The translations under genes and the position numbers were made by a program. Below are positions 2,960 to 20,541 of a stretch of DNA of 24,522 nucleotides, one piece after another. The stretch's first letter is position 1. Each line of letters begins with the position of its first letter. The stretch lies in IMG/VR virus record IMGVR_UViG_3300006844_000040, positions 1 to 24,522 of that record. One strand, 5' to 3'. The DNA comes from a virus. The notes under the pieces are model-generated. The model had not been told where the DNA came from. It did not search any database and saw only the letters and a list, made by a program, of their open reading frames with translations.

Positions 2960-3406
2960 TCAGTCCTCCAAATCCACATCGTCCCGCGTCACGTTGCCCA
3001 CGTAACCCGGCACGTCCCTGTGCTCTTCGTAGCCCCGACCACCGACCGCGGCCTTGAAGCTCGCGGTTACACCGGTTGCCAGAGCGTCGATCTTCTGCTT
3101 GTTCCTGCGCCTATATTCCTCGTGCAGCTCCTTCGGAATCCGCGCGAGCACTAGGTCCCCTACCTCAACTTGACCGACGACCGACTCGCCAGCCTTCATA
3201 GGCGTGTTGTCTTTGCACACGCCTTCTTCGGCCCCCCCGTTGACGATCTCATATCCGAGAAAGTCACGCTTGCGGGCCATGTTCAGGCGCTCCTTACGGA
3301 GCCACCGATAGTGGTAGTTTGGATCCTTGTTCTCGACAGCGAGCGGGTCGTAGATGCCCGCTGCCATCTTCTTGTCGGCTTCGTCCTTTGTTACTTCGAT
3401 GCCCAT
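2960..3406 (-). CDS. Conserved-position head-region protein, unknown function
   Basis: 148 aa from MGIEVTKDEADKKMAAGIYD. It is soluble and charged, with YHYRWLRKERLNMARKRDFLGYEIV near the middle and IPKELHEEYRRRNKQKIDAL later. The chosen ATG overlaps the scaffold stop (TAATG) and has AAGGCGG just upstream. The frame is open for 23 more codons, but they lie inside the scaffold gene. The gene sits between scaffold and decoration-like genes and is probably co-expressed with head assembly. No catalytic motif is visible. Confidence 0.7.
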   Translation of the reverse strand: MGIEVTKDEADKKMAAGIYDPLAVENKDPNYHYRWLRKERLNMARKRDFLGYEIVNGGAEEGVCKDNTPMKAGESVVGQVEVGDLVLARIPKELHEEYRRRNKQKIDALATGVTASFKAAVGGRGYEEHRDVPGYVGNVTRDDVDLED

Positions 3407-4131
3407 TATGCCGCCTTGCTGCGCCCCTTGTCTTTGCGAGGACGAGTCCCGTCGGGGGTGCCCCACTTGGTCCAATCGTCCTCGGACATCTCGAACGCCT
3501 TCATGATCTCTCGCTCCTCGCGAGTGATTGGCTTGGCCTTCGCCTTTTCGACCTCAGCCGAGCTGGCGCCTTCCGGCTGTGAAGAACGTTCGCGTTCCTG
3601 CTTGCGTGCCTCCTCGACTTCCTCTTCGAGGTGCTGGGAGCGCACGTACTTGAGAGCCGCCGTATACGATCCAGACTTGGCCTTCACGTCCAACGGCATG
3701 TCGCGCATGAACTCATCCACCTCGTCGGCGTACTTGTCGAACATCTTGCCATGCTTCAGCCGAGCCGCTTCGCGTTCGGTATCCGCAGTGCGTCCGAAGT
3801 ACTCCTGCACGATCGGGCCTACCCGGAGCGTCACCAACTCATTCATGGCAGCGACCGGGTCTTCATCGAAGCGGTCCCGAAGCGTCTTGACTTGCTTCTG
3901 GGCGTCGACGTTTCCAGCGTTGGCCGCACGCTGGATCTGCTCCAGGATCACGCTGACTTGGCCACGCGCCGCAGCAGCCTCTTCGAGGCTACGCTGCGTG
4001 ACCCCACGCATCTCCTGGTTTTCGGCTTCCAGGCGGGCTAGTCGCTCAGAGTCCGGAGACTTGTCAGTCCCCTGCTCCGTTGCCTCGTCCTGAGTATCCA
4101 GCTTCTCGTCCTCGTTGTCCCCGTTGATCAT
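3406..4131 (-). CDS. Putative capsid scaffolding protein
   Basis: 241 aa, very hydrophilic and highly charged. It has a disordered acidic N-terminus (MINGDNEDEKLDTQDEATEQ), a heptad-like coiled coil at ~residues 28-60 (LARLEAENQEM...SLEEAAAARGQ), a helical middle, and a Lys/Arg-rich C-terminus (RPRKDKGRSKAA). Acidic, helical proteins with a basic C-terminal tail between portal and capsid genes are typical phage scaffolds. Scaffolds organise procapsid assembly and bind the coat protein through the basic tail. The start ATG has GAGG eight bases before it. The first 68 bases overlap the end of the 104-aa gene. Confidence 0.65.
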   Translation of the reverse strand: MINGDNEDEKLDTQDEATEQGTDKSPDSERLARLEAENQEMRGVTQRSLEEAAAARGQVSVILEQIQRAANAGNVDAQKQVKTLRDRFDEDPVAAMNELVTLRVGPIVQEYFGRTADTEREAARLKHGKMFDKYADEVDEFMRDMPLDVKAKSGSYTAALKYVRSQHLEEEVEEARKQERERSSQPEGASSAEVEKAKAKPITREEREIMKAFEMSEDDWTKWGTPDGTRPRKDKGRSKAA

Positions 4132-4378
4132 TCTCTACCTCGTGTTGCGCCTGTTCCAGACGCTCTACCATCATGTCGCCGAATTCAATGAAGATGTTCA
4201 GCGCGTTGAATTCACCTCGGATTTCGACTACTTCATTCCAGTCCTTAGCCCCCACCAATCTCAGGAGGCATCCCTGCCTCGCCTCCAGGAGGTGCTCCCA
4301 TAGCAGGAGCCACTCCGGCTCCGTTCTGATTCGGTCCAGCGCCTCCTTGAGGTCCTGGGGGTTGTTGGGCATTGGCAT
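4064..4378 (-). CDS. Small helical head-region protein overlapping the portal gene
   Basis: 104 aa from MPMPNNPQDLKEALDRIR. The N-terminal ~65 residues form an amphipathic helical pattern (RTEPEWLLLWEHLLEARQ...VVEIRGEFNALNIFIEF) resembling short phage proteins often found near portal genes. The C-terminus is polar (NDQRGQRGREAGYSG). The first 134 bases overlap the 3' end of the portal gene in another frame, yet the well-formed helix begins inside the overlap, so a downstream start is unlikely. AGGCGG lies six bases before the ATG at 4378; ATG 4372 is a possible alternative. Function is unknown. Confidence 0.65.
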   Translation of the reverse strand: MPMPNNPQDLKEALDRIRTEPEWLLLWEHLLEARQGCLLRLVGAKDWNEVVEIRGEFNALNIFIEFGDMMVERLEQAQHEVENDQRGQRGREAGYSGRGNGAGD

Positions 4379-6149
4379 CGGTGTCCGCCTGCATCTGATC
4401 TGCGAGACTCGGGGGTAGGAGGGTGTCGACCGCACGGATCTCGTAGGTCTGAACGATCATCGACATCAGGTACCTAGCACCGTCGGCCATCTGCACGGCC
4501 ATTTGCTGCACAGGTGGCGGGGTCTGGGGGTTCATCGCAATGCCGCTGATCTGAATGAGCTGCTGGTAGTATTGGGTCAGCGTACCCATCATCGCCATGA
4601 GACCCTGCTTTTCGATCTCGCGGTTGATGGTCGCTGTAGAGGCCGTGAGTTCCATCCCTATGCCGTCGGCAAGGAATTCATCGGGCAGGTTTAGGACCTG
4701 CTCGATGAGCTCACCGTCCTGGCCCTTGACAAAATAGGCCATGCCCGATGGTCTGAACTGGGCATTCAGGATCAAAAGCTTCTTGCCCACGGCTCCCAGG
4801 CAGTCGCGGACGTCCCGAACGTTCAGGTCGAACCGTCGGTTTCCTTCTTGGATGAGCGCGAGTGTACCAGTTGCAGTGGCACGGTTCCCCATGACGTTGG
4901 ACTCTCGGCCCAACTGGTAATCAGCAACTCCGGATCTTCGTTCAGAATACGCAAGGCACGATGTCTCAAGCTGGCGCATTGAGGGGTACACATCGGCCAT
5001 CGGGAGGGTAATGATGTCTTTTGACGGGTCCGGCACTGTAAGAAAGCGTCCAGGCCAGACTTTAGTTCCATTTCTAACCACACCACGCCGCCCGATGAAG
5101 AACCTGGTGTTGGCAAGGGTGGCGTTGTCAACTTGCTGGTTGTGAAGCGTCGAGATTTCCTCCTGAAGTAGTGCAAGCTGCCTGGATATCCCGATTCCAT
5201 CTCGCTTTCCTTCTCTGTCGATGAACTTACCCTTCTTGAAGGGACGCTCACCCATCACATCAGGATTGTAGACGCAACGAGCGATGGTCCTCGTCTCGTG
5301 ATGGTAGGTAATCATTACCGGCACGGGCAGATCGCTACCACCCAAGGGCAGGTCCGCGTAGACCTCATACAGCGTGTTTAGCTTATCTCGAGGCCGAGGA
5401 GCCGCCTCTTCAAGCTCGTTCTGAAGGACCTTTTCCTCCATAGGCGTCATCTCAGCCTTGTGGGCCAGGATCTTGTCCACCTCTTGGTAGACTCGATCAT
5501 GCTTCCTCCATCGAAGCTGGCCATCCGTGAGCCTAATGCGGTGAGCCATCCACTCGGCCTGATTCAGCTCGTCCTCGATGCCAGCCTGACAGATAATGTC
5601 CGCCAGCAGGATATGCTTGACCTGCGGGCGGCGAACTATCTTGTCTCTTGGCCGGGCAGCGCCCGCCGAGATCACGAAGGTTCGGTGGGTAAAGGACTCC
5701 CAGTAAATCTTGAGGTAGGCCCACCCGTGCTTCACGACCTCAACGATCCAGCTACGGATCTGCATGTACATATCGAGCTCGTTGATGCGGGACCACTCCA
5801 TAAAGTCCTGGAGGGGGTGCACGACGGGCTCGAGGTCCTTGATGAGCGCTTGGGCTGACCAGAAGGGCTGGACAGCGAAGATCGTGTTGATGATCCGGGC
5901 AACGATCGAATCGACGGTGATGCCCACAAGCGGGACCACGAGGTTAGCGGCACCGTCCCACGGGAAGGTCTTCCGGGCGGTGATAGGATCACCCATGTAC
6001 AAGCGGTTGGACTCATTGATCCATTCGAGCTTTAGCTCATGTGCATACAGGGCCTCCTCCAGCTCGCTGGAAAGAAACTGAGGCAACCACGACCGATCCT
6101 TCGTTGTCAGCGCGACCGGCGCGCCCGGAATGACCCCCTCGAGTGCCAC
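4245..6149 (-). CDS. Portal protein
   Basis: 634 aa. The portal forms the dodecameric ring at the capsid vertex through which DNA enters and leaves. Features that fit: large size; position two genes before the scaffold; GDPITARKTFPWDGAANLVVPL near the N-terminus; an EEISTLHNQQVDNATLANTR-type clip/stem segment; and QLGRESNVMGNRATATGTL, a pattern common in podo- and siphovirus portals. The last ~49 residues are a Pro/Gly/Gln-rich tail (QQPPGPQGGAGPNQNGAG) encoded in DNA that also encodes the next gene. The start is GTG at 6149, one base past the previous stop, with AAGG upstream. Confidence 0.85.
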   Translation of the reverse strand: MALEGVIPGAPVALTTKDRSWLPQFLSSELEEALYAHELKLEWINESNRLYMGDPITARKTFPWDGAANLVVPLVGITVDSIVARIINTIFAVQPFWSAQALIKDLEPVVHPLQDFMEWSRINELDMYMQIRSWIVEVVKHGWAYLKIYWESFTHRTFVISAGAARPRDKIVRRPQVKHILLADIICQAGIEDELNQAEWMAHRIRLTDGQLRWRKHDRVYQEVDKILAHKAEMTPMEEKVLQNELEEAAPRPRDKLNTLYEVYADLPLGGSDLPVPVMITYHHETRTIARCVYNPDVMGERPFKKGKFIDREGKRDGIGISRQLALLQEEISTLHNQQVDNATLANTRFFIGRRGVVRNGTKVWPGRFLTVPDPSKDIITLPMADVYPSMRQLETSCLAYSERRSGVADYQLGRESNVMGNRATATGTLALIQEGNRRFDLNVRDVRDCLGAVGKKLLILNAQFRPSGMAYFVKGQDGELIEQVLNLPDEFLADGIGMELTASTATINREIEKQGLMAMMGTLTQYYQQLIQISGIAMNPQTPPPVQQMAVQMADGARYLMSMIVQTYEIRAVDTLLPPSLADQMQADTDANAQQPPGPQGGAGPNQNGAGVAPAMGAPPGGEAGMPPEIGGG

Positions 6150-18249: not shown

Positions 18250-18605
18250 TTGGTTTTGCCAAAGGCGTTGGGCCGAAGACGGCCCCATCAACGCGCAAGA
18301 AGACGGGTAAGAAGCGCGGGTCGAATCCCCCTGGGGCGCGAACGCGCCGGGAGCCACCCAAGGTCCCGTTTCGGGACGAGATCGACGACACCCAGTATAG
18401 CTACGTGAGGCCCGGCGCCCCTGTCCTGGCGGATACCCCGGAGCTACGCGCCACGGTCGGCGACGCTCTCCTCGAGATCGCTACCGCCCACCAGATGTAC
18501 GCGGACGCAATCAAGAAGTTCCACGCCCTGGGCCAATTGCCCGTGGCGATCATGGACACGATTCCCAAGCGTCAGCAGCGCTACCTCAGGATTTGGAAGA
18601 AGTAG
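18246..18605 (+). CDS. Unknown 119-aa basic protein
   Basis: MIGFAKGVGPKTAPSTRKKT... A strongly basic, probably disordered N-terminal ~40 residues (KKTGKKRGSNPPGARTRREP) is followed by a more ordered helical part (TPELRATVGDALLEIATAHQ...) and the end QRYLRIWKK. It could bind nucleic acid through the basic tail. It overlaps the previous gene by ATGA. Confidence 0.65.
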   Translation: MIGFAKGVGPKTAPSTRKKTGKKRGSNPPGARTRREPPKVPFRDEIDDTQYSYVRPGAPVLADTPELRATVGDALLEIATAHQMYADAIKKFHALGQLPVAIMDTIPKRQQRYLRIWKK

Positions 18606-18607
18606 TC

Positions 18608-18862
18608 ATGAACTCCCGACCCATCCGCATCTACCCAGACGTCTCGGAGTGGATTCACGCGCGCATGAACGAGCGCCTCAACACACCGAACAAAGTCCTC
18701 CGAGACTTCTTCGGCCTACCCGTGGCCGACAAGCTCACGCGGGCAGCATATCCACGCAAGCCCAAGGTCAGCGGAATGACGCTGATCTTGACCGATGGCC
18801 GTAGGATCGAAGTCCTCCGGCCCCTGGGCGTAAGGCGCCCAACCAAAAGAAAGGAGACATAG
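18608..18862 (+). CDS. Ribbon-helix-helix-like small protein
   Basis: 84 aa. The N-terminal half, RPIRIYPDVSEWIHARMNER and then LNTPNKVLRDFFGLP, has the strand-helix-helix pattern of ribbon-helix-helix DNA-binding proteins: I-R-I-x-x-D-V, then an amphipathic helix, then TPN-x-VLR-x-x-x-GL. The C-terminus is basic (GVRRPTKRKET). ATG 18608 follows the previous stop by two bases with GGAAGAAG upstream. The call is from pattern only; a repressor or accessory role is inferred. Confidence 0.55.
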   Translation: MNSRPIRIYPDVSEWIHARMNERLNTPNKVLRDFFGLPVADKLTRAAYPRKPKVSGMTLILTDGRRIEVLRPLGVRRPTKRKET

Positions 18863-20086: not shown

Positions 20087-20161
20087 ATGGACCAACTAGA
20101 CTGGTTCTGCCTCGTGTTCTTCGTCGTAGGCATGTTCTGGATCTTCATGGGCCAGAAGTGA
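20087..20161 (+). CDS. 24-residue single-helix membrane peptide
   Basis: MDQLDWFCLVFFVVGMFWIF plus MGQK: almost entirely one transmembrane helix with a short charged end at each side. AAGGGG lies about nine bases before the ATG, two bases after the previous stop. Very small membrane peptides of this kind can modulate host membrane complexes. Its size makes chance possible, but the SD and fit are good. Confidence 0.5.
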   Translation: MDQLDWFCLVFFVVGMFWIFMGQK

Positions 20162-20250
20162 GATTGTAGCACCGGGGGGCTGGGCGATCAGCCCTCGCAT
20201 GGTGCAATCCCGCACCCACGACGGGCGTAAACGCCCAAGAAAGGTAGAGC
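20162..20250 (+). other. Structured intergenic RNA element with alternative pairings
   Basis: GATTG (20162-20166) pairs with CAATC (20205-20209), and CACC (20170-20173) with GGTG (20201-20204), enclosing an inner stem GGGCT/AGCCC (20177-20181 with 20190-20194). GGTGC (20201-20205) can pair either with GCACC at 20169-20173 or with GCACC at 20212-20216, so two hairpins are mutually exclusive. A third stem-loop GGGCG-TAAA-CGCCC (20223-20236) lies just before the AAGAAAGG SD of the next gene. No U-tract is present. Confidence 0.5.
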
Positions 20251-20541
20251 ATGGAAATCAGCGTGAAGAAGTTGGAAGCCCACGGATTCAGGGTCGAGGC
20301 GTTCGATGACGACGGGCACACGCTCCGGTCCCTGGCAAGCGTCCAGATCGGCCCGATGCCGGGCTGTGGCGGCATCCCCGCCGGGCTCATCAACCAGATC
20401 CGCAGCCTCCTCATGAACCCGGAGTACGGAGATCTGGCCGTCGAGTCCCTGGTCCGTCGCATCCACTCCCTACAGATCCTCGAGTCCATCGAGGCAGCCG
20501 ACGGCCCCAGTGCATGGGCCCGGCACCGGGTGGAGGAGTGA
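20251..20541 (+). CDS. Unknown 96-aa protein
   Basis: MEISVKKLEAHGFRVEAFDD..., then a Gly/Pro segment (GPMPGCGGIPAGLINQIRSL) and a helical C-terminus (AVESLVRRIHSLQILESIEA). Soluble, no clear motif. AAAGG lies about eight bases upstream of the ATG, right after the structured element. Its stop overlaps the next ATG (TGATG). Confidence 0.65.
   Translation: MEISVKKLEAHGFRVEAFDDDGHTLRSLASVQIGPMPGCGGIPAGLINQIRSLLMNPEYGDLAVESLVRRIHSLQILESIEAADGPSAWARHRVEE

Follow-up and report, generated by a model that had tools for sequence, protein, structure and literature searches.

What occupies the short interval between a 24-aa ORF and a 96-aa gene in the genome of a tailed phage, and how could it act on the second gene? 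The window analysed here, a stretch of 24,522 nt, is a 24.5-kb IMG/VR virus record, probably a fragment, from a tailed phage that encodes its portal, terminase and capsid proteins on the minus strand. The first-pass annotation described this interval as a riboswitch-like element in which GGTGC (20201-20205) can pair with either of two GCACC copies (20169-20173 or 20212-20216), followed by a GGGCG/CGCCC hairpin (20223-20236) and the Shine-Dalgarno (SD) sequence AGAAAGG (20238-20244). All these bases are found at these places (Table 1). The observation is confirmed and its interpretation is partly supported, as detailed below. The stop codon of the 24-aa ORF (TGA, 20159-20161) adjoins the 5′ edge of the element. 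The predicted folding energy of the region is -43.0 kcal/mol, compared with -35.6 kcal/mol for dinucleotide shuffles (z -2.1, 6/200). Single-sequence folding is thus predicted to beat chance only modestly, and homologues were therefore sought.

Table 1. Features of the locus, with their positions in the window.
Feature	Position	Strand	Basis or remark
24-aa ORF MDQLDWFCLVFFVVGMFWIFMGQK	20087-20161	+	Read from sequence; predicted membrane microprotein
GAUU, 5′ strand of P1/pseudoknot (partner AAUC, 20206-20209)	20162-20165	+	98.6% paired, 87 sequences
NCAGC box (GTAGC in the window)	20166-20170	+	Unpaired in the P3 fold; conserved in alignments A1, A3 and A4
P2 hairpin (20175-20183 with 20188-20196)	20175-20196	+	Covariation and fold
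P3 hairpin, GGUGC[AAUCCC]GCACC	20201-20216	+	Compensatory changes, 87 sequences
H3, optional stem-loop between P3 and SD	20223-20236	+	Complementary stem of other sequence at the same place in three relatives
SD sequence AGAAAGG	20238-20244	+	Sequence
Downstream gene, 96 aa	20251-20541	+	ORF, start ATG at 20251; no known family

A scan of IMG/VR with the 16-mer GGTGCAATCCCGCACC gave 66 matches. In about half of them, GATTNCAGC or a close variant occurs together with a hairpin, the 16-mer, a SD sequence and a start codon. This half comprises leaders of genes for inovirus coat proteins (Pfam Phage_Coat_B), leaders of DUF932 genes and kin of the window's own phage. A less strict pattern and the covariance models R1 and R2 then widened the family. 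Its members are compact (about 55 nt) and are composed, from 5′ to 3′, of GAUUNCAGC, a variable hairpin (P2) and a second hairpin (P3) of the form NNNGC[AAUCNN]GCNNN, followed by the SD sequence and the start codon; the AAUC in the P3 loop doubles as the 3′ strand of P1/pseudoknot. A large subgroup has the form TGATTGCAGC - P2 - NCGGCAATCMTGCCGN. Positions 20162-20216 score 50.7 bits with R1 and 46.4 bits with R2, values that follow by construction since the window is a seed of both models; independent support for its membership comes from the pattern-found relatives and from compensatory changes. On the coding strand, the covariance model matches nowhere else in the window. The site at 18825-18852 that had been taken for a second copy, a hairpin GGGCGTAAGGCGCCC followed by AGAAAGGAG (GGGCG..CGCCC plus AGAAAGG), falls within the 3′ end of an ORF (18593-18862) and has no GAUUNCAGC/P2/P3 core.

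Carriers of the element are many environmental phage contigs, filamentous (inovirus) and tailed phages alike. About 12 copies are present within 8 kb of a 65.5-kb tailed phage (L311) and about 11 in L312, approximate numbers because weak and opposite-strand model matches were discounted by eye. Both phages have roughly one element per gene junction, before unrelated genes. In the multi-copy operon of L311, the region 3047-4825 encodes an AAA ATPase (phrog_8638) that is 48-49% identical to a Mycobacterium smegmatis phage protein. The element is rare in GTDB genomes: the exact pattern was found in 5 out of 84,980, all Burkholderiales or Nitrosomonas, and model R2 matched 11/125 genomes of the Nitrosomonas family, 5/369 in a sample of its class and 3/398 in a sample of its phylum. 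The known hosts of carriers are Burkholderiales or Nitrosomonadaceae. Some weak order-level matches turned out to correspond to another palindrome and were rejected. Four Burkholderiales genomes (L167, L168, L169 and L172) carry a palindrome of the type GATTGCAGCGCAAAGGCG...CGCTTTTGCAGTGTAATCCC, which in several cases matches the model on both strands; this repeat is outside the element family.

No covariance model of Rfam 15 matched the element in the window or its relatives, in gathering-threshold or E-value searches, the sole match in this set being a tRNA at another place in L065. Among named isolate phages, nothing was found with the window gene, an inovirus coat protein or one element sequence as query; the element is missing from six named phages that have related genes, a single 14-bit match among them being judged to be chance. 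A search of an open-access library of papers found no description of the element. The family itself is firmly supported, and its novelty is likely, although not proven.

The 96-aa gene has orthologues in three relatives (L016, L046 and L065; 28-37% identity), each directly 3′ of an element. In these ortholog-bearing relatives, the stem sequence of H3 differs and its complementarity is kept (GGGAUGC/GCAUCCC, GGGUUGC/GCAACCC). A relative with 82% terminase identity (39.9-kb record) has neither the 96-aa gene nor the element. AlphaFold models the 96-aa protein with low confidence (pLDDT 63.5). In another contig, L099, the element (918-975) precedes a gene for a 252-aa protein with many AAESAAxSAA-type repeats.

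The covariation analysis that the first-pass annotation had proposed as a check decisively bears out a structured cis-acting RNA: compensatory changes accompany its recurrence across unrelated phages, and it lies, as described, just 5′ of the SD sequence. In alignment A4 (87 sequences), compensatory changes are present in 10 out of 10 pairs of P2 and in three out of five pairs of P3, the other two being invariant; the pairing of 20201-20205 with 20212-20216 was correctly recognized and corresponds to P3. The covariation score of P2/P3 is 0.595; shuffles (500 shuffles) gave 0.167, and slid controls did not exceed 0.14. The first selection filter included P3 pairing; P2, unfiltered in this first step, is therefore the cleaner covariation test there. 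Later sets were obtained via the models or a P2 filter. G.U exceeds A.C in P2 (26 versus 5), which shows that selection acts on the coding-strand RNA. The length of P2 (20-50 nt) is not kept to multiples of three, and stop-codon readthrough was rejected for this reason. A tRNA remnant, considered because GGUGCAAUCC resembles a T-loop, was also rejected: it has no ARAGORN or Rfam match, and the covariation of P3 is that of a 5-bp stem.

The near-constant pairing of GAUU with AAUC (Table 1) is accompanied by changes on both sides in three of its four pairs (6 cells compared with 0.5 in shuffles). Variants of the GAUC:GAUC type occur in L311 and in the separate contigs L339/L375 and L393, which were sought with the compensated pattern; an AAUU:AAUU variant occurs in L303 and a GAAU:AUUC variant in L311 (copy 1685). 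The models R1 and R2 score these letters as unpaired, so that model searches are biased against compensated GAUU:AAUC changes. A scan for GAAU/AUUC gave nine matches, none of them a real element; the GAAU:AUUC change thus rests on copies within one phage, L311, in which copy 1685 shows it in full and copy 1906 shows it at the changed pair, the first pair needing a bulge. A scan for GACU/AGUC compensation found none, the sole real element in the set (L190) being uncompensated.

The element is anchored to the stop codon that ends the gene before it. An upstream ORF (at least 25 aa) ends within 9 nt of GAUU in 57 out of 67 copies, with the arrangement U|GAUU in 40. The median distance from P3 is 6 nt to the SD sequence and 18.5 nt to the start codon, and the examined copies are oriented towards the downstream gene, followed by its SD sequence and start. 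This anatomy would fit the RNA-unfolding type of translationally coupled gene pair; the anchoring could also merely reflect the compactness of phage genomes.

Competing folds are supported, as had been suggested, with P3 as one of them and a helix other than that first assigned as its competitor. The helix proposed between 20169-20173 and 20201-20205 does not covary and shows 63.2% pairing, compared with 61.1% in shuffled columns. The competitor of P3 is instead P1, formed by GAUU(GUA) at 20162-20168 with (UGC)AAUC at 20203-20209. Vienna folding favours the nested P1+P2 structure in most sequences (mean probability 0.72 for P1 and 0.24 for P3), although P3 clearly covaries. When P1 and P3 are each imposed in turn, the two energies lie a median of 1.3 kcal/mol apart; the two folds are thus predicted to be nearly isoenergetic. 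GAUU:AAUC and P3 could also coexist as a H-type pseudoknot, in which 2 nt would be left to bridge the 4-bp helix in 83 out of 87 sequences. We judge such a loop to be tight and therefore prefer, without proof, an alternation of P1 and P3. When A8:U46 of P1 is lost (A4 columns), G6:C48 is present in 42 out of 43 sequences, compared with 13 out of 44 otherwise. This pattern fits a conservation of P1 length; the split follows two subgroups and may have been inherited from one event.

The SD sequence is predicted to be unpaired with a mean probability of 0.52 when P1 is formed, 0.55 when P3 is formed and 0.45 in a shuffled-element control. Neither predicted fold masks the SD sequence, and the earlier idea of a riboswitch or attenuator that sequesters the ribosome binding site (RBS) is therefore unsupported. 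Nor does the region read as an intrinsic terminator or transcription attenuator, P3 and H3 being followed by the purine-rich SD sequence and by no U-run.

Our preferred reading, put forward tentatively, is that the element is a stop-codon-anchored intercistronic cis-acting RNA switch of phage operons, which adjusts translation initiation at the following gene. It could adopt two folds, one nested, with P1 (GAUU:AAUC) around P2, the other with P2 followed by P3, in which GAUU:AAUC might be retained as a H-type pseudoknot. Since the upstream stop lies in or against GAUU, a ribosome terminating there should cover GAUUNCAGC, as judged from the size of a ribosome footprint, and break P1, which would release AAUC and favour P3. 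The fold beside the SD sequence would thereby report upstream translation and set initiation about 6 nt after P3, by either coupling or insulating the two genes; that ribosomes drive such a switch, and which way it acts on the next gene, is what we infer from this arrangement. The covariation in P2, P3 and GAUU:AAUC, the stop anchoring and the presence of about one element per junction in L311 and L312 speak for such a switch; the equal SD accessibility predicted for both folds speaks against it. We find it rather doubtful that these elements form an undescribed class of portable stop-anchored switches at nearly every operon junction, each termination setting the next initiation, common to ssDNA filamentous and dsDNA tailed phages.

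The main rival, which we consider unlikely but worth serious attention, is an mRNA processing or stability element, cut by a host endoribonuclease or stopping an exonuclease, such that each gene obtains its own stable piece of mRNA. The density in L311 and L312, where nearly each junction has about one copy, the location immediately behind one gene and ahead of the following one, the nested P1+P2 fold, which amounts to an interrupted hairpin of about 16-20 bp, and the presence of the element before the inovirus coat gene, expected to be highly expressed, would all suit this role. However, the unpaired conserved CAGC and the covarying P3 would be superfluous if the element simply served as a substrate of RNase III or as a barrier to an exonuclease, and the short distance to the SD sequence suggests a role in initiation.

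The conserved letters in GAUUNCAGC and GCAAUC, together with the known hosts, could alternatively point to a binding site for a RNA-binding protein of the host or phage, or for the ribosome itself, used as a translational operator or enhancer. The presence of the element in both filamentous and tailed phages makes it more likely that a trans-acting factor would be host-encoded. We regard this explanation as improbable: it has no candidate factor, and the conserved GAUU and AAUC change together, which shows that base pairing is maintained at these positions and not merely the letters. Slightly more improbable still is a small-molecule riboswitch with a compact pseudoknot aptamer made of GAUU:AAUC and P3, as conserved unpaired bases, a H-type topology with an inserted hairpin and a location 5′ of the SD sequence might suggest; many copies per operon precede unrelated genes, terminating ribosomes would run into the first strand, the SD sequence is unmasked in both predicted folds and Rfam offers no match. 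Finally, a palindrome that acts at the DNA level (as a terminator, a packaging site or a recombination site) or is there by coincidence, or conservation as coding sequence, is very improbable, even if the element is rich in inverted repeats and carried by ssDNA inoviruses, given the excess of G.U over A.C in P2, the lack of a U-run 3′ of the element, the orientation of examined copies towards a downstream SD sequence and start, their location between ORFs and P2 lengths that are not multiples of three.

If the family holds up, unrelated phage types have in common a conserved, covarying cis-acting RNA that is absent from Rfam and present in up to about 12 copies per genome. As a compact natural intergenic part, the element would allow a direct test of the influence of terminating ribosomes on the next gene in compact phage genomes.

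Several known systems share features with the element. The SAM-II, preQ1-II and fluoride riboswitches are compact and place a H-type pseudoknot before the SD sequence, a topology and location like those of the element; in contrast to them, the element has no Rfam match, occurs in multiple copies inside operons and leaves the SD sequence outside the fold. RNase III sites process the polycistronic mRNA of phage T7 between genes and, like the element, are hairpins of about 60 nt present in several copies between genes of one operon, but they lack conserved letters such as GAUUNCAGC/GCAAUC and a second competing hairpin. A pseudoknot switch was reportedly described by Asano and Mizobuchi in 1998 for repY-repZ (repA) of IncI, IncB and IncL/M plasmids. 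In repY-repZ, initiation at the downstream gene depends on termination at the upstream one and on the pairing of a short loop, as we propose for the element; the sequence, size and topology differ, and repY-repZ are plasmid replication genes under antisense RNA control. Mutually exclusive folds also control initiation on the timP mRNA, the active one containing a pseudoknot (PMC11228461). Unlike the element, timP is a single gene, of a type I toxin-antitoxin system, whose inactive fold masks the RBS and which is controlled by an antisense sRNA (PMC11228461). Coupling by RNA unfolding is known at a similar stop-start spacing in rpmI-rplT (+52 nt; PMC12548453). In rpmI-rplT and in MS2 coat-lysis (PMC12548453), as proposed for the element, an upstream ribosome alters folding before the downstream start, with a stop-start spacing that fits two ribosomes (about 70 nt for the element). 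Those are single gene-specific structures that mask the RBS, whereas the element is portable, precedes many unrelated genes and is predicted to leave the SD sequence unmasked.
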